DNA of 35,381 nt from a virus: IMG/VR virus record IMGVR_UViG_3300037069_002169, positions 1 through 35,381 of that record. One strand, written 5' to 3'. Positions within the stretch are counted from its first letter, which is position 1. Each line of letters opens with the position of its first letter. The notes beneath the pieces were generated by a model, which saw only the letters and a list, made by a program, of their open reading frames with translations, was not told the DNA's origin and ran no database searches. Shown in pieces: positions 4,845 through 32,320 of this stretch. Made by a program: the position numbers and the translations under genes.

Positions 4845-4883
4845 CCTGTTAAGGTTGATATATTTACAACAGACAACCACAAT
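4845..4883 (+). promoter_or_regulatory. repeated-type promoter, copy 1 (portal gene)
   Basis: The upstream element CCTGTTAAGG runs into -35 TTGATA (4855-4860). A 17-base spacer contains TTTACAAC, and the -10 is CACAAT (4878-4883). The portal ATG (4891) starts seven bases later, where transcription should begin, so the message looks leaderless. Confidence 0.8.
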
Positions 4884-4890
4884 TACGGTT

Positions 4891-6573
4891 ATGGCATCTT
4901 CTCCAAAAAACAACATCACGCCCCTACCGCAAGTTACCCCCGTTGCAAGTGCAAATTCAGCCGCCACTCCACCACGATCTACCGCGCCCGTAAACTCAGT
5001 AAACGCCAAGCCAACCTACCCATATCCTGACCAAGCGACACGACTAGAGCGCTACCGATTCAATTCGCTGTTGTTCGATGGCAACCATTTCGACGCTTTC
5101 AAAATCAAGGTCGACAATGAGCTTTATAACAAGAACTACTCTCGGCTGCGCTACATTGTCAATAACTTCCCAGGGTTAATTAGCAAGATCTGCGCCGATA
5201 TGCTCTTTGGCGATAAGCCACGCATCACATTGCCAGAAGGCGAAAACAAGAACGATAACCATGATTGGCTTGAGAATTGGCTGCACGACGTTGATTTCTT
5301 TACCACATGCTACGAGTCTGCAATGACATCCAGCTATAAAGGTGACACGCTCTTTAAGTTGCGCGTTGGTGTATTGAATGACCCCGACAACCCTAGCATC
5401 ATCGTCGAGCAGGTACAGCCTGACTTCTTTTTCCCAACGCTCAATCCGCTTAATGTGAGCGCAGAACCACAGCAAATGGAAATTTCTTTCGTCATTCAGA
5501 TTAACGGTGATGACTACCTTCGTAAAGAGATTCACACGCCCGGCTACATTCACAATGAGCTTTGGAAGCTTAATGGTACTGAAATCATGCATCAGGTACC
5601 GCTCGAAATGCTTGATGATCCTGATCTGCAAGAAGAAGAGGCAACCGGCGTCAATCGCCTATTGCTCGTGCATGTTCCAAACTGGAAGGACGGCCGTACC
5701 TACTTTGGCAATGATGATTACCAAGATCTAACTACGCTTTTCTATGCCATCAACAACCGTATGAGCAAGATCGATAACATCCTCGACAAACACTCTGACC
5801 CTATCCTAGCTATTCCGGAAGGCGTACTCGACGAAGAAGGCCATGTGCGCCGCGAGCATCTGAACCTGTTTGAGACTGGCCCAGATGGTGCAAAACCTGA
5901 ATACGTCGTGTGGAATGCACAATTACAGTCTGCTTTTGATGAAGTAGATCGTCTGATGCAGTCACTCTACATGTTCTCTGAAATTTCACCGGATGCATTC
6001 GGTATATTTGAAGCCGGGGCTGCAGCTTCTGGCCGCGCACTCAAATACCGACTGATGCGTACGGTCGCCAAGATCAACCGCAAGAAGCTTTACTTTGACC
6101 GTGGGCTTAAGGAAGTTGTCTACCTAGCTCAGTTACTGGCTGCAGAGCATGGCATCGAAGCACTTGGCACTAAATACGCCGGTGCTCCTGAGATTCCATC
6201 CATTGAATGGAAAGATCCTATTCCACAGGATAGCTACGAGCAGGCACAAGAAGAAGAGTTGCGCCTGGCATCTGGCAACCAAACTGTTCTGGATTCTATT
6301 ATGAACATTGATGGTTTGACTGAAGAGCAGGCCGCTGAGAAGGTTAAGGCTATTGCAAAAGAGAAAAAGATACTCACACCTACCATTGCTGTTCCAGTTA
6401 CTAATGTCGCCAAATCAAAGAATGGTGCAAATCCCGACGAAGCCAATCCTGATGTTGCTGTGCCAGGCCAATCGCCAAAGACGACGCCAAGCGGCAAACC
6501 GGCCTTGCAAAACCCTGCTGCTACCAATGTCGTAATCCCATCAACACCGAAGCCAGCTAAAGCAGACCAGTAG
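4891..6573 (+). CDS. portal protein (SPP1-like)
   Basis: A 560-residue portal protein of the SPP1 gp6-like class, by position after TerL and by sequence features: an N-terminal region with NNFPGLISKICADMLFGD, a central LLLVHVPNWKDGRTYFGNDDYQDL stretch read in two adjoining parts, and a helical ALKYRLMRTVAKINRKKLY segment in the stem/wing region. The C-terminal 80 residues are Pro/Ala/Lys-rich and probably disordered. It forms the dodecameric ring through which DNA enters. I choose ATG 4891 over ATG 4855, because the upstream codons are the promoter itself. It has no ribosome site and is likely translated from a leaderless mRNA. Confidence 0.9.
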   Translation: MASSPKNNITPLPQVTPVASANSAATPPRSTAPVNSVNAKPTYPYPDQATRLERYRFNSLLFDGNHFDAFKIKVDNELYNKNYSRLRYIVNNFPGLISKICADMLFGDKPRITLPEGENKNDNHDWLENWLHDVDFFTTCYESAMTSSYKGDTLFKLRVGVLNDPDNPSIIVEQVQPDFFFPTLNPLNVSAEPQQMEISFVIQINGDDYLRKEIHTPGYIHNELWKLNGTEIMHQVPLEMLDDPDLQEEEATGVNRLLLVHVPNWKDGRTYFGNDDYQDLTTLFYAINNRMSKIDNILDKHSDPILAIPEGVLDEEGHVRREHLNLFETGPDGAKPEYVVWNAQLQSAFDEVDRLMQSLYMFSEISPDAFGIFEAGAAASGRALKYRLMRTVAKINRKKLYFDRGLKEVVYLAQLLAAEHGIEALGTKYAGAPEIPSIEWKDPIPQDSYEQAQEEELRLASGNQTVLDSIMNIDGLTEEQAAEKVKAIAKEKKILTPTIAVPVTNVAKSKNGANPDEANPDVAVPGQSPKTTPSGKPALQNPAATNVVIPSTPKPAKADQ

Positions 6574-19196: not shown

Positions 19197-19236
19197 ACCT
19201 GTTATGGTTGATATATTTACAACGCCTGAACATAAT
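19197..19236 (+). promoter_or_regulatory. repeated-type promoter, copy 5 (tail-fibre operon)
   Basis: CCTGTTATGG, -35 TTGATA (19208-19213), a 17-base spacer with TTTACAAC, -10 CATAAT (19231-19236). ATG 19244 is seven bases after the -10, so the transcript should begin at the start codon. Confidence 0.82.
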
Positions 19237-19243
19237 CAAGCTT

Positions 19244-19765
19244 ATGATTGCCAAGCACTCCATAGACGAAAAAACAGCGAAGCATGTTTCTAAAATCTTA
19301 AAAGAAGATCCAGAGCCAGACGCGCGCGCGACCGCTAGAGAGACGTTGGACTTTTACATCAAAAACTACCCACTTGTGCAGATTGTGCGCTGTGATCTTT
19401 GCGGTGCTGATCTATGCCTAGAAGTTTTGATACCGGCCGAGGTGCAGCGCAATAAGTTGCACCACCACGACGGTTTACGCCGCATAGTCCTGGATGGCGG
19501 CAAGTTGCTGTCATCCCGTAAGCGTCTTGATGGTGCCATGGGTTATGAGTGTCGATGCGGAAATAACACGATAAATGCAAGTGTAGAGATTGGTCTACTT
19601 CCAACTGTAAGCAACATAACCGGCGAAGCTATGATCCCACAGATTGAGCCTCATCATGAAGCTATGGTTAAGCTGGAGATCGCCAAACAGCACTACACAC
19701 CTGATGTTGAGACTAATGGCAATAAGACTCGCATTGAGTCGTTTACAGTTGAGAGGCTTCAATAA
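19244..19765 (+). CDS. zinc-ribbon-like protein before fibre genes
   Basis: A 173-residue protein whose start is set at ATG 19244, because the in-frame upstream ATG lies in the promoter. It has a helical N-terminal 45 residues, then CDLCGADLC and later ECRCGNN, giving the four cysteines of a zinc ribbon (about residues 50-110). Between them comes a basic RNKLHHHDGLRR stretch. The C-terminal part is mixed. No ribosome site is present and translation is probably leaderless. It may be structural or regulatory; unassigned. Confidence 0.75.
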   Translation: MIAKHSIDEKTAKHVSKILKEDPEPDARATARETLDFYIKNYPLVQIVRCDLCGADLCLEVLIPAEVQRNKLHHHDGLRRIVLDGGKLLSSRKRLDGAMGYECRCGNNTINASVEIGLLPTVSNITGEAMIPQIEPHHEAMVKLEIAKQHYTPDVETNGNKTRIESFTVERLQ

Positions 19766-20280
19766 TGAGTGTTCCAGGTTATACTGCAATATCATTTACC
19801 GCAGGTGAACAACCAACTACCGCAAAGTGGAACCTTGTCGGTAGCAATGATGCGGCGTTTAATACGTTTTTGAGTGGGCCAGCGACTGTCCCGTCTTCTG
19901 TATTAACATATGCTTCTGCTCCTGCATCAGCTGTAATTTCTGGCACTTCATGGAGTGGAACAGGCACGACAAACATTTTAACAGGATCATATACTTTTAC
20001 TGCGGGTGCGAAATACCAGATAGTAGTTGCATCATCAAACCCGAACTCTGCCGGAATTTGGCAACTGAGTTATACGGTATCCGGAGGTGGCACATATAAA
20101 GGGTTAAGTCATACACGTTTTGGTGGGGCAAGCGGTGAACAACTTGGAGTGAGCCTCATAAATACTTTTATACCGACAGCGAGTGGAGCGCAAACTATAA
20201 CAGTAACCGCAACTCTTATTACAAGCGGCGGTGCTAATGGTGACGATATTATCGTCCTAATAATTCCATTACCTAACTAG
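19765..20280 (+). CDS. tail fibre / receptor-binding protein with invertible C-terminal part
   Basis: A 171-residue protein. A constant N-terminal 39 residues start MSVPGYTAISFTAGEQPTTAKWN and end FLSGP. A beta-rich, Gly/Ser/Thr-rich tip of about 132 residues follows (SWSGTGTTNILTGSYTFTAGAKYQIVV). Residues 25-39 are encoded by a 43-base repeat that recurs inverted at 20673-20714 beside an opposite-strand tip cassette. The build fits a small fibre tip whose receptor-binding part can be swapped by DNA inversion. Start overlaps the upstream stop (TAATG). Confidence 0.75.
   Translation: MSVPGYTAISFTAGEQPTTAKWNLVGSNDAAFNTFLSGPATVPSSVLTYASAPASAVISGTSWSGTGTTNILTGSYTFTAGAKYQIVVASSNPNSAGIWQLSYTVSGGGTYKGLSHTRFGGASGEQLGVSLINTFIPTASGAQTITVTATLITSGGANGDDIIVLIIPLPN
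19839..19881 (+). repeat. inverted repeat arm L of invertible fibre segment
   Basis: A 43-base arm from CGGTAGCAATGATG to GAGTGGGCCA inside the fibre gene, with a run of five T (19867-19871). The reverse complement recurs at 20673-20714 with one T fewer. The two arms bound a 791-base inner segment. Confidence 0.92.
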
Positions 20281-20684
20281 GTACCAATCTCAAAAACCGT
20301 TAATGAGTGCGTGTTGTATTGTAATAATTGAGATGCACCTGAACTATTTAGCAGATATATTGCGAAAGTATGACTACCTGCAGCTAATGCTGCGGTAATA
20401 GTCGAACCACCTCCTGAAGCACCTGAAGCAGGTGTAGTAACATGACATAGCTCGGTTGAAAATGCACCGTCTATCCATAATCTAAAAAGCGCCGTCCCAG
20501 CTCCTAGATATACGGCTGTAATGTCGAAACTTACATATACCTTCCCTCCAGTGGTAGTGATGGTGGCACTAGCACCGCTTACGGCCGCTTCAACACCAAC
20601 GCTGAAAGCTTGATTAGCATTATCTGTTTCGATATGAGCACTTGCTGACGTTCTTAGGGCTCCGGTTATATTTGGCCCACTCAA
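20277..20684 (-). CDS. silent inverted fibre-tip cassette
   Basis: A leftward frame of 135 codons, convergent with the fibre gene; the two stops share CTAG. It has no ATG or ribosome site: the frame enters through the inverted repeat and begins LSGPNITGALRTSAS, so TTG 20684 is only an apparent start. The tip is beta-rich (GKVYVSFDITAVYLGAGTAL; SHTFAIYLLNSSGAS) and the same length as the active tip but different in sequence. Inversion with the crossover after the T run would join it in frame to the constant N-terminus at FLSGP. Confidence 0.8.
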   Translation of the reverse strand: MSGPNITGALRTSASAHIETDNANQAFSVGVEAAVSGASATITTTGGKVYVSFDITAVYLGAGTALFRLWIDGAFSTELCHVTTPASGASGGGSTITAALAAGSHTFAIYLLNSSGASQLLQYNTHSLTVFEIGT

Positions 20685-20714
20685 AACGTATTAAACGCCG
20701 CATCATTGCTACCG
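20673..20714 (-). repeat. inverted repeat arm R of invertible fibre segment
   Basis: A 42-base reverse-complement copy of the arm at 19839-19881, identical except for four T in place of five. It lies just outside the silent cassette and about 15 bases before the next promoter, so that promoter stays outside the invertible piece. Confidence 0.92.
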
Positions 20715-20729
20715 AAGGGATGCACTCTT

Positions 20730-20769
20730 ACCTGCTATGGTTGACCGGAGTTATACATAAGCCAACAAT
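20730..20769 (+). promoter_or_regulatory. repeated-type promoter, copy 6
   Basis: CCTGCTATGG (20731-20740), -35 TTGACC (20741-20746), a 17-base spacer in which TTACAAC has decayed to TTATACAT, -10 AACAAT (20764-20769). ATG 20777 is seven bases downstream. It gives the downstream tail genes a start independent of the invertible segment. Confidence 0.75.
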
Positions 20770-20776
20770 TAGCATT

Positions 20777-20968
20777 ATGGCAGGTACTCAAACTTCAACA
20801 ATTATTCCTACTCAGAATGGCACGATTGTCATTAACTGGGCAGAAGGTAATATCATTATTACTGACAAGACTAATGTGCGCCGCGCAGTTATCGGCATCG
20901 CTCCAGATGGCGAGGTAGTCGTCGACATCTCTAAAACTGGCATTGATATTTATTCGGCATACTCATGA
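20777..20968 (+). CDS. small tail-region protein (63 aa)
   Basis: A 63-residue strand-rich protein: TSTIIPTQNGTIVINWAEG, then IIITDKTNVRRAVIGIAPDG and a VVVDISKTGIDIY ending. The start is ATG 20777, since upstream in-frame codons are the inverted repeat and promoter. There is no ribosome site; leaderless translation is likely. Four-base overlap with the next gene. Likely a tail-tip or fibre-associated protein by position. Confidence 0.75.
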   Translation: MAGTQTSTIIPTQNGTIVINWAEGNIIITDKTNVRRAVIGIAPDGEVVVDISKTGIDIYSAYS

Positions 20969-26758: not shown

Positions 26759-26850
26759 GCAGTTACACAAACTGCTATTTGTGGCACTAGGTTGAAGCCA
26801 ACCAAGTGCCTAATAATCTTGGCTCCGGTTTTATTACTGGGGCTCTTTAT
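26759..26850 (+). promoter_or_regulatory. structured 5' leader with three hairpins
   Basis: Hairpins in order: GCAGT/ACTGC (26759-26775); GGCACT-A-GGTTG with CAACC-A-AGTGCC and a four-base loop (26783-26810), 11 pairs around one mismatch; and GGCTCCGG with CTGGGGCT (26821-26844, with G-U pairs), followed by a T-rich stretch. The last resembles a weak terminator, so the leader could act as an attenuator. The remaining bases to 26983 hold no gene I can support. Confidence 0.5.
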
Positions 26851-27640: not shown

Positions 27641-28528
27641 ATGACAATCACAGAGGCATTCAACCTCTATCGATTAGACTGCATCGTGTTCCGAAACCAA
27701 TCTCCAAAGACAGAAGAAAACCATTCTTATGCGCTCAAGTGGCTCATAGAATTTGCCGGTGATATCCAGATCGAGGATTTAAGCTTCGATCAGGTTCGCA
27801 ACTGGAAACTCTGGCTGGATAAAGGCACTAATGGCAAACCGCGTAGTGCCTCAACGGTACGGGAATATATAATCAGGCTTCGAGTGGTTCTTCGTCATGC
27901 CCAAAAACGCGGTTATGGTGTGCTCGATTTTGAGCTGATACCGATCCCTAAGCGTACAGAGAAGATACCGGAGTTCTTGAGCAAGCAACAGGTTGCCGAG
28001 CTGATATTTGAGGTAGGAAAGCCAGCCAGAGGCTACCCAAGGATCAATCGTTCGCGCAATGTAGCAATCATCAGTTTGCTCTATGCGTCTGGCATTCGTG
28101 CGGCGGAGCTATGCCGTCTTAACCGATCGGATATTCGCCCGGATGGTAGTTTCACAGTGTTTGGCAAAGGCAGTAAATACCGTCTGTGCTTTATTGATGA
28201 GCGCACCCGTATGTTTCTTGAGGATTATCTTATGATGCGCACCGATAGCAACCCTGCGCTTTTTACGGCCAATCAGAATGGCCTCCGTCTTTCAAAGCAT
28301 ACGCTGCAACGCATTTTTGAGTATGCCAGGGGTAGGGTAGATTTTGAGGTATTGGTGCATGCCCATATGCTGCGGCACTCGTTCGCCACTGATCTACTGC
28401 GAAATAATACCAATATGCGCTACGTTCAAGTGATGCTAGGCCATAGCAGTTTGACTACGACCCAGATGTATACCCACGTTGTCGACGAGGATCTCCATAG
28501 GGTCTATGCGACCAATCATACCTATTAA
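27641..28528 (+). CDS. int: tyrosine recombinase (integrase/XerC-D type)
   Basis: A 295-residue protein, AGGAAAG 10 bases before ATG. An N-terminal SAM-like core-binding domain (about 1-100) is followed by the catalytic domain, with Arg153 (ASGIRAAELC), Lys176 (FGKGSKY), His242-x-x-Arg245 (HMLRHSFATD), His268 (LGHSS) and nucleophile Tyr277. It cuts and joins DNA through a 3'-phosphotyrosine. Length and sequence are XerC/D-like without an arm-binding domain. It sits next to a tRNA gene, suiting phage integration. It is also the only recombinase seen that could drive the fibre inversion at 19839-20714. Confidence 0.93.
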   Translation: MTITEAFNLYRLDCIVFRNQSPKTEENHSYALKWLIEFAGDIQIEDLSFDQVRNWKLWLDKGTNGKPRSASTVREYIIRLRVVLRHAQKRGYGVLDFELIPIPKRTEKIPEFLSKQQVAELIFEVGKPARGYPRINRSRNVAIISLLYASGIRAAELCRLNRSDIRPDGSFTVFGKGSKYRLCFIDERTRMFLEDYLMMRTDSNPALFTANQNGLRLSKHTLQRIFEYARGRVDFEVLVHAHMLRHSFATDLLRNNTNMRYVQVMLGHSSLTTTQMYTHVVDEDLHRVYATNHTY

Positions 28529-28738: not shown

Positions 28739-28815
28739 GCGGGTCTAGCTCAGTTGTTTAGAGCGCCACCTTGCCAAGGTGGAGGCCAGGGGTTAGAGTC
28801 CCCTGACCCGCACCA
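28739..28815 (+). tRNA. tRNA-Gly (anticodon GCC), CCA encoded
   Basis: A complete cloverleaf: acceptor GCGGGTC/GACCCGC (7 pairs), D-stem GCTC/GAGC, anticodon stem CCACC/GGTGG with loop TTGCCAA, variable AGGCC, T-stem AGGGG/CCCCT with loop TTAGAGT, discriminator A and encoded CCA. It reads GGC and GGT, and GGC is the main Gly codon of the repeat protein at the window ends. Odd points: position 19 is T and position 56 is A in place of the near-universal G19-C56, and position 73 is A where bacterial tRNA-Gly usually has U. Confidence 0.95.
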
Positions 28816-28954: not shown

Positions 28955-28991
28955 GATCCTGGTGCCATAAATAGCAGTTTGTGACCAGGAC

Positions 28992-29304: not shown

Positions 29305-30318
29305 ATGGCTAACAATTCGCTCCAGCTCTACATCCGCAGCGGAGCCGCGCAGAGCAGCATCGAGCAAACGCTGAAAGATCGTGCAGACGACTTCACGACC
29401 TCATTGCTGACTGTGATCAATGGTAACCCTGTGTTGCAAGAGTGTGATGCTCAGGAAGTGGTACGGACGGCCCTAAAAGCCGCCAGTATGCGCTTGCCGA
29501 TAGATCCCAACCTCGGGTTGGCTTACATAATTCCATATCAGAATACCAAGAAAATTCGCGAAGAATGGACAGACAGCAAAGGTGTCGTTCGTTATCGCGA
29601 CAAATTTATTAAGAAATACGAACCGCAATTGCAGATTGGCTGGAAAGGCTTTGTGCAGCTTGCGCTGCGCACTCGGCTCTACAAGACCATCAACGTTACC
29701 GATGTGCGTGAAGGTGAATATAACGGCCAGGATCGTCTGACTGGTGTCATTCACTTTGAGTGGATCGACGATAATGCAGAGCGCGAGAAGTTACCTATAT
29801 CTGGCTATGTTGCCTATTTCAGGCTGCACGATGGTTTCGAAAAGATCCTATACATGAGTTTTGATGAGCTCGAAGATCACGCTAAGAAATACAGCAAATC
29901 ATACCAGTACGGTAACGGTAAGTGGGTTGACGATAAGCCAAACATGTCTAAAAAAACAGTCGTTAAGCTGTTGATTAGCAAGTGGGGGCCACAGTCTACC
30001 GAAATCCAGAAGGCTCTACGCGCTGATCAGGCTGCAATGGGTGACGATGATACCTATAACTACGTCGACAACGATAAAAGCAAAGACACTACCGATCAAA
30101 CGCCTGCAACAGGTGACGAGCCAACCACTGGAACTGACGATGTCGCAGAAGGTGAAGTAGTAGATGCTCCGGCCGCTGATGATATCGATCAGACTCCAGT
30201 CGAAGTTCCTGCCACACCGCAGGAACCACAAAAATCAGTGAAAGAAAAGGCTGCAGCCTGGACTGCAAAGCATAAGGCTGAAGCAGCCGAAAAACGAGGT
30301 GATAGCAATGAGCAATAA
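29305..30318 (+). CDS. recT: RecT single-strand annealing protein
   Basis: A 337-residue RecT-family protein, AGGAAGG site. The core lies at about residues 25-235: VVRTALKAASMRLPIDPNLG, YIIPYQN, LQIGWKGFVQLALRTRLYK and KPNMSKKTVVKLLISKWG are typical RecT blocks. The C-terminal 100 residues are acidic, Thr/Pro-rich and probably disordered, ending in a basic helix. RecT anneals single strands left by a 5'-3' exonuclease. The next gene starts inside its last codons and encodes a nuclease, the expected partner. Confidence 0.94.
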   Translation: MANNSLQLYIRSGAAQSSIEQTLKDRADDFTTSLLTVINGNPVLQECDAQEVVRTALKAASMRLPIDPNLGLAYIIPYQNTKKIREEWTDSKGVVRYRDKFIKKYEPQLQIGWKGFVQLALRTRLYKTINVTDVREGEYNGQDRLTGVIHFEWIDDNAEREKLPISGYVAYFRLHDGFEKILYMSFDELEDHAKKYSKSYQYGNGKWVDDKPNMSKKTVVKLLISKWGPQSTEIQKALRADQAAMGDDDTYNYVDNDKSKDTTDQTPATGDEPTTGTDDVAEGEVVDAPAADDIDQTPVEVPATPQEPQKSVKEKAAAWTAKHKAEAAEKRGDSNEQ

Positions 30319-32320
30319 TCTTATCGACTATTGGTCCTACTCAAGTATGGCATCACTTCTCAGCAACCCAATGGCGTTCAAGAAGCAATACATTCTCAAG
30401 CAATATGACGATCTTACGAGTCCATCCGCACTGGTCGGTTCTGCCTGCCACAAGGCACTCGAAATGTTCTTTAAGGGATTAGACCAAGATGCTGCGATCT
30501 CCGAAGGTTTGAAGGTCATTAACGAGAAATCTGACATTGGCATCAATTATGGCAAGACCGGAACTCGCGCCGCTATTCTAGCGACTTACACCAAGGCAAT
30601 AAACTACGCTTTCGCAGAGCTTCCTACATTCCACGAGCTCCTTGGCGTGGAAGAAAGCATAACGATCGAAATCGATAGCATGACCGGCGGCACAATGGCT
30701 CTTCCCGCCAAAGCCAAGATGGATATTGTCGAGCGCAACAAACTTGGCGAACTCGAGATAACTGACTGGAAATTCGTAAAAAGTTACACCAATGCAGATG
30801 TCGATGATTTCAAGAAATGGCTACAAGGCATGTTTAACTACTACGTCATTAAGGCTAAGTACGGTGAGGCTCCGGCTCGTATTCGATACCGCGAGTGTAA
30901 GGTTACGGGCAATAAAGACAACACGCCACAGATGCAGGCATATACCTACGAGTTTAACAGCCCGGCTGATTTTGCCACCTTCGAGAAGCTATACAACGAA
31001 TGCACTACGCAGATCAGTTTGCCCGGCTATCAATTCCTACCGAACCCGAACGACATCTTTGATGGTCAAATAACCTTTGAGATATACCGCCAAGGCATCA
31101 TGGGTGTTGAAGCGCCAGTCGCCGTACCGCATAAGACTGAACAAGTGGCTTTTGCCGATAAACAGTTCGTGCCAAGTGCTGGTGATCGGGTAGAAAACAA
31201 AGATCTATCGATGGAAGAACGCATCCGTCTGAAGATGCAGGAGTTTGTCGGCGCTGTCGAAATGCAGGAGACTCACGTTGGCCCTAGCGTTACGCAGTAC
31301 ACCCTAAAAGTGTCTCGCGGTATCCCAATGAGCAAGATTGCTCGAATGGATAGAGATATCGCACTCGCAATTGAAGCCCGTAGCTTGCGTGTAGAGGCTC
31401 CAATACCTGGAACTGGGCTAGTTGGCATCGAAGTGCCTAGCGCCGTTCGAAAGACCGTTGAGCTGACTGATAACCATCTGCGCCCAGGTACGCTTCAGTT
31501 ACCTATCGGCGTAAACGTCTTTAACGAAGTCATCTACAAAGATCTTGGCGATATGCCGCACCTGCTCGTTGCCGGAGCGACTGGCGCAGGTAAGTCAGTG
31601 ATGCTGAATGTAATCATCCAGGCACTCACTAAGCAGCTTACACCTGATGCATTGCAATTGGTTCTCGTAGATCCAAAGCAGGTAGAGTTTGCGCCTTTTG
31701 AAAGTCTGCCGCACCTTGCGCTACCAGTTGTCTACGACAACAAAGGTGCCGCGAATGTACTGGCTGCAACCGTCGAAGAAATGGAGAAGCGCTACAAGAT
31801 GCTGCGCCGTCGTAATTGCCGGTCAATCCAAGAGTTCAACGCAAAGGGTAAACCAATGCCATACCGAGTGCTGATCCTGGACGAGTTTGCCGATCTGATG
31901 ATGACCGCCGAAAAGCAGCCTGTCGGAAATATCGACATCAAACAATTTAACGAGAACTTACTGTTTCACATTGCCAACGGTAATGGCAAGCTCACGCAAA
32001 AAGCGACCAAAGCAGCACTAGCAGATACGCTCGATGATGGCATCGCGCCTGCAGAGCAGTCAATCATACGTCTGGCTCAGAAGGCTCGAGCTGTTGGTAT
32101 TCACCTGATACTTGCGACTCAGCGACCAAGCGCAGATGTTGTTACCGGCCTAATTAAGGCAAACATTCCTACCAAGATTGCATTCATGACCACGAGCAAA
32201 GTGAATAGCCAGATCGTGATCGACCAGAGTGGAGCTGAAGAGCTCACCGGCAAAGGCGACATGCTATTCCTCGATCCAACTAAAGCAGGCTTAACACGGC
32301 TGCAAGGGCTGTACTGCTGA
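30308..32320 (+). CDS. PD-(D/E)XK nuclease fused to FtsK-type DNA translocase
   Basis: A 670-residue two-part protein, ATG 30308 behind GAGGTGA. Residues 1-265 are a RecB/Cas4-like nuclease: GSACHKALE with His48, Asp139 in KAKMDIVE, Asp153-x-Lys155 (ITDWKF), and Gln173 before NYY. Residues about 305-670 are an FtsK motor: the alpha-domain pattern HVGPSVTQY and APIPGTGLVGIEVPS, Walker A GATGAGKS (423-430), Walker B VLILDEFADL (521-530) and LATQRPSADVV. It ends where the beta domain ends (DMLFLDP...RLQGLYC), so the sequence-reading gamma domain and membrane anchor are absent. Probably a motor-driven exonuclease for RecT; this is inferred. Confidence 0.9.
   Translation: MSNNLIDYWSYSSMASLLSNPMAFKKQYILKQYDDLTSPSALVGSACHKALEMFFKGLDQDAAISEGLKVINEKSDIGINYGKTGTRAAILATYTKAINYAFAELPTFHELLGVEESITIEIDSMTGGTMALPAKAKMDIVERNKLGELEITDWKFVKSYTNADVDDFKKWLQGMFNYYVIKAKYGEAPARIRYRECKVTGNKDNTPQMQAYTYEFNSPADFATFEKLYNECTTQISLPGYQFLPNPNDIFDGQITFEIYRQGIMGVEAPVAVPHKTEQVAFADKQFVPSAGDRVENKDLSMEERIRLKMQEFVGAVEMQETHVGPSVTQYTLKVSRGIPMSKIARMDRDIALAIEARSLRVEAPIPGTGLVGIEVPSAVRKTVELTDNHLRPGTLQLPIGVNVFNEVIYKDLGDMPHLLVAGATGAGKSVMLNVIIQALTKQLTPDALQLVLVDPKQVEFAPFESLPHLALPVVYDNKGAANVLAATVEEMEKRYKMLRRRNCRSIQEFNAKGKPMPYRVLILDEFADLMMTAEKQPVGNIDIKQFNENLLFHIANGNGKLTQKATKAALADTLDDGIAPAEQSIIRLAQKARAVGIHLILATQRPSADVVTGLIKANIPTKIAFMTTSKVNSQIVIDQSGAEELTGKGDMLFLDPTKAGLTRLQGLYC

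Follow-up and report, generated by a model that had tools for sequence, protein, structure and literature searches.

Organization of the tail-fibre locus

The window analysed here is the whole 35,381-nucleotide stretch of the viral record IMGVR_UViG_3300037069_002169, in which a tail-fibre gene comes after the tape-measure and tail genes. The fibre locus contains the following features:

19198 to 19236, plus strand: CCTGTTATGGTTGA (TTGATA-17-CATAAT), a site resembling a late promoter, upstream of both the 185-aa gene and the fibre gene
19208 to 19765, plus strand: gene for a 185-aa protein, directly upstream of the fibre gene and conserved in relatives
19765 to 19837, plus strand: constant head (N-terminal anchor) of the fibre gene, which together with the start of the arm encodes MSVPGYTAISFTAGEQPTTAKWNLVGSNDAAFN
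19838 to 19881, plus strand: left (active) inverted-repeat arm, 44 nt, inside the fibre gene, with a run of five T residues (T5)
19882 to 20280, plus strand: tip A, now joined to the head, with its TAG stop at 20278-20280
20277 to 20280, no strand: palindrome CTAG, in which the stop codons of tips A and B overlap
20277 to 20672, minus strand: tip B, a silent alternative tip in antisense
20673 to 20715, minus strand: right (silent) inverted-repeat arm, 43 nt, with a run of four T residues (T4)
20731 to 20769, plus strand: late promoter-like site immediately beyond the silent arm and ahead of the next gene (about 20778-20968)

The first 33 residues of the fibre are conserved in other viral contigs, where they are found on dissimilar C-termini, and some of the C-termini carried by related heads match C1q, BclA_C, gp53-like tail-fibre families or PHROG tail proteins. 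A conserved head is thus combined with dissimilar C-terminal domains across phages, as in modular adhesins, and the straightforward reading is a head with an exchangeable adhesin tip, the tip being the part that would bind the receptor. The same 33-residue head was also seen at L036:9163-9831 on a C-terminus that, by eye, resembles the phage collar type. The late-promoter motif, CCTG(C/T)TATGGTTGA with single-base variants, recurs near positions 4845, 7932, 9800, 12968, 19198, 20731 and 22646, upstream of structural gene blocks, and is mostly followed by a TATTTACAAC-like sequence.

Two inverted arms enclose the tips

The arms at 19838-19881 and 20673-20715 are inverted copies of each other, with 33 nt of perfect match, then T5 against T4, then 10 nt of perfect match; the T run is the sole length difference between them. 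The match has an E-value of about 1e-12 (BLAST within the 35,381-nt window), and this similarity is far beyond chance. The initial annotation had described inverted arms of 43 and 42 bases, and the present comparison confirms them while extending each by one base at its outer end. Half-site (dyad) symmetry was looked for in the arms and none was found.

In an 8,054-bp contig, IMGVR_UViG_3300036651_000761, the locus is laid out identically, and the 6,590 bp that were compared are 100% identical; this contig and the window may, however, derive from one sample. The T4 of the right arm is present in this contig as well, and a random base error of one assembly is therefore not its source, with the same proviso that the two contigs may share a sample. 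Inverted repeats are known to confuse assemblers, and the right arm could in principle be a false inverted duplicate, or the locus a chimera of two orientations, with a second contig from the same sample repeating the error; however, tip B is a distinct coding sequence and no copy of tip A, a separate contig has the identical arrangement, and a relative (described below) carries the same kind of locus. An assembly artefact is therefore very improbable, and the assembly duplication of the right arm, named at the outset as an observation that would refute an invertible segment, is unlikely in the light of IMGVR_UViG_3300036651_000761.

Among the viral contigs scanned for the exact arm and for TCGGTAGCAATGAYGC, the opposite orientation was not found, and only the same-orientation contig and the relative were recovered. 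The search of metagenomes for both orientations, proposed at the outset as a check, thus returned a single second copy of the window phage, in the same orientation. Neither the DNA nor the fibre protein matched anything in phage records, two scans of bacterial and archaeal genomes yielded no relative, and the open-access literature searched contained no description of this locus.

Tip B is an intact coding sequence and joins the head in silico

The minus-strand frame of tip B is open from 20684 to 20277 and is equal in length to tip A; the only start codon in it is a TTG that has no obvious ribosome site. An open frame as long as this arose in about 0.2% of Markov-shuffled copies, and the codon score of tip B (0.025) is on par with that of tip A (0.033), while every other frame scored negative. 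The earlier description of a start-less tip frame of the same length on the opposite strand is upheld. The stop codons of the two tips share the palindrome CTAG, so that the segment is packed end to end with no spare DNA. No minus-strand promoter-like site was found between 19100 and 21100, which leaves independent expression of tip B unsupported.

Tip B is weakly similar to the expressed tips of three other loci (L005, L008 and L038); none of 500 shuffles reached this similarity, yet the score of 34.7 bits lies close to the 34.3 bits of the best shuffle. Tip A gave no match to other tips, and neither tip of the window matched a protein family at curated cut-offs. A fold search of the tips returned weak beta-sandwich carbohydrate-binding modules as its best matches, and these were discarded because the models were too poor (mean pLDDT 52 and 41).

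Joined to the head in silico through the T5 arm, tip A (the present form) gives a fibre of 171 aa and tip B one of 170 aa. With the T4 arm between head and tip B, translation ends after 35 residues. The expectation that tip B joins in frame to the constant N-terminus consequently stands for the T run of the left arm and fails for that of the right arm. With T4 in the silent arm, a full second adhesin is obtained only from a crossover between the T run and the tip; one between the head and the T run would give a truncated 35-aa fibre, that is, an off state.

A relative carries a probable switch of the opposite design

Of the relatives found, the closest is IMGVR_UViG_3300025914_000475, whose contig runs colinear with the window. 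Its inverted repeat is perfect over 53 bp (L004:4335-4387 and 5074-5126), and one of the arms begins 73 bases past the fibre start codon, which is also the position of the window arm in its gene; both arms begin at the same base and sequence, TCGGTAGCAATGA. The invertible piece of the relative, 792 bp long, contains the fibre head and, upstream of it, a promoter-like site and a 183-aa gene; tip A' lies to its right, and the silent tip B' lies to its left on the minus strand, its stop one base away from the stop of a tail gene. Inversion in silico fuses tip B' in frame and yields a 174-aa fibre. Furthermore, tip B' shares 48% identity across 109 aa with a tip that another phage (L015) expresses, a similarity reached by none of 500 shuffles, which marks it as a genuine tip. 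The two architectures would thus be mirror images, the tips flipping in the window phage and the promoter, upstream gene and head flipping in the relative, and an adhesin-tip switch most likely recurs in this phage group.

The sequence TCGGTAGCAATGAYGC occurs in 35 viral contigs, and only in these two phages is it present twice and inverted in the fibre loci. Within each phage the arms agree at 43 of 44 positions (window) or 53 of 53 (IMGVR_UViG_3300025914_000475); between the phages they are alike over the first 13 bases and divergent beyond. Repeated recombination would best explain arms that are alike within a phage and unlike between phages, the alternative being recent separate duplications.

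A third locus is found in the more distant relative IMGVR_UViG_3300050033_000401 (L009/G005), where a 174-aa gene is surrounded by four complete fibre genes, two on each strand; its fibre heads are only about 76% alike, and it has no near-identical repeat. The antisense fibre genes of G005 end beside the stop of a tail gene. These comparisons suggest, although they do not prove, that the switches had divergent fibre genes as their origin, the silent copies having since lost the head.

The same comparisons bear on whether the window locus is a relic that flips rarely or never, the second tip having arrived in antisense with a piece of the head and the arm being identical only through recency. 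Such a history would be in keeping with the single orientation seen in contigs, with the frame-breaking T4 of the silent arm, and with the antisense fibre genes of G005, whose own heads indicate that antisense tips can arise in the absence of a switch. However, in each of two related phages the silent tip is intact and the arms are nearly identical, at one and the same position of the gene but within different architectures, and a relic would need two recent coincidences to account for this; we regard it as unlikely.

A proposed two-position adhesin switch

We propose that the locus is a two-position switch of the tail-adhesin tip, whatever its catalyst, and place the probability of this reading at roughly 0.7. 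The constant head would attach the adhesin to the tail, and recombination between the 44/43-bp inverted arms would flip the piece of about 0.8 kb that holds both tips, joining the head to either tip A or tip B. Because the promoter and start codon would serve only the tip behind the head, the phage would make a single adhesin at any one time, and two binding specificities would be kept within its population. The invertible fibre segment with a silent alternative tip set out in the initial annotation is thus well supported, mainly by the independent same-locus switch of the relative. That annotation had overlooked the frame-shifting T4/T5 difference, the tyrosine recombinase of the phage, its RecT module and the relative. 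Since a comparable switch of reversed design is present in the relative, the phage probably changes its adhesion by DNA flipping.

Candidate catalysts

Three genes of the window were considered as sources of the recombination:

27641 to 28528, plus strand: XerC/D-like tyrosine recombinase with no N-terminal arm-binding domain, a possible catalyst
29305 to 30318, plus strand: RecT-family strand-annealing protein, a possible catalyst
30299 to 32320, plus strand: PD-(D/E)XK nuclease fused to FtsK motor domains in one frame, a possible partner of RecT

A serine recombinase was rejected as the catalyst, since PF00239 had no match in any of the 12 records searched (the window record and 11 related ones; controls were positive), and the absence of a serine invertase noted earlier is borne out. 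Recombination between the arms is most likely carried out by the phage's own enzymes.

The gene at 27641-28528, the only one with PF00589, is the only recognisable site-specific recombinase in the record, and it or a host enzyme acting in trans could drive the same switch by cutting a short core, TCGGTAGCAATGA, at the outer ends of the arms, a mechanism that has been proposed for the Rin shufflon of bifidophages. The arms of both phages start at exactly the same base despite their different architectures, and the enzyme is XerC/D-like and lacks an arm-binding domain, as in the Rin system (PMC6109161). The shared start favours a site-specific core or common descent, and to that extent counts against homologous recombination; a crossover at the TCGGTAGCAATGA core, however, would place T4 next to the head, so that the tip B form would be truncated. 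Nor was dyad symmetry found in the arms, and the gene lies neither at nor inside the invertible locus but about 7 kb away, next to a tRNA-Gly, as would be expected of an ordinary integrase. PF00589 had no match in the other switch-bearing record, IMGVR_UViG_3300025914_000475, which says little because that contig lacks the region where the integrase would lie. Cutting by a tyrosine recombinase is possible, at less than even odds.

The tRNA-Gly (GCC) that adjoins the recombinase gene is complete (28739-28815) and may be an attachment site or a phage tRNA. A 26-nt inverted repeat (92%; 26766-26791 and 28958-28983) flanks the integrase and the tRNA-Gly, and its copy at 26766-26791 contains an operator-like CACAAA-N6-TTTGTG.

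RecT and the nuclease-FtsK protein are present in both switch-bearing phages; the relative G001 carries the fusion at 42% identity. RecT occurs in G006 as well, a relative with no switch, so that its association with the switch is weak. The length of the arms and the problem posed by the T run lead us to lean slightly towards homologous recombination, and the RecT/nuclease module is placed slightly ahead of the XerC-like recombinase as the candidate catalyst. A fuller model, in which the strand-annealing module drives the adhesin switch on 44-53-bp arms with no dedicated invertase and the two architectures evolved from divergent complete fibre genes, is offered tentatively.

Only a handful of phages are known to have invertible fibres, and most of these encode an invertase themselves. 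The uncultured group described here combines a very compact switch, a mirror-image relative in which the head flips and the tips stay, and a third phage with four complete fibre genes; the three loci may form a series from gene array to switch, and the group offers a test of whether adhesin variation needs a dedicated invertase.

Comparison with known inversion systems

In the G segment of phage Mu and the C segment of P1, a constant fibre N-terminus is followed by two C-terminal versions that lie back to back between inverted repeats, and inversion is carried out by a serine invertase (Gin or Cin) with an enhancer system. The window likewise has inverted repeats inside the fibre gene and a silent C-terminal version on the other strand. 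The Mu and P1 segments are, however, several times longer, and a serine recombinase is found only on their side. A search of the window arms for gix-like half-sites revealed no dyad symmetry. The parallel drawn at first with Mu and P1 holds for the layout and not for membership of the family, no serine recombinase having been found.

The Rin shufflon of Bifidobacterium prophages has a constant N-terminus of the receptor-binding protein and start-less, dissimilar C-terminal cassettes that flip at repeats within the gene; several cassettes are present, with an 11-bp crossover site, and the system uses an armless XerD-like tyrosine recombinase encoded next to them (PMC6109161). The window resembles Rin in its constant N-terminus and start-less tips, and the phage also encodes an armless XerC/D-like recombinase; the window and its relative would differ from Rin in having two tips, arms of 44 and 53 bp and no adjacent recombinase. 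A second bifidophage inversion locus, of about 500 bp, has no recombinase beside it and is the nearest in spirit to the window switch (PMC6109161). In the haloviruses phiCh1 and phiH1, an active fibre gene and a start-less inactive partner on the other strand are exchanged by inversion; the segment that inverts also encodes the tyrosine recombinase Int1, and the active and inactive partners are repeat proteins related to each other (PMC6210493). The start-less partner on the opposite strand is shared with the window, whose segment, in contrast, holds tips only, and dissimilar ones. Altogether, the switch of the window has the layout of Mu/P1, phiCh1/phiH1 and Rin but is without the defining recombinase feature of each, where tested.
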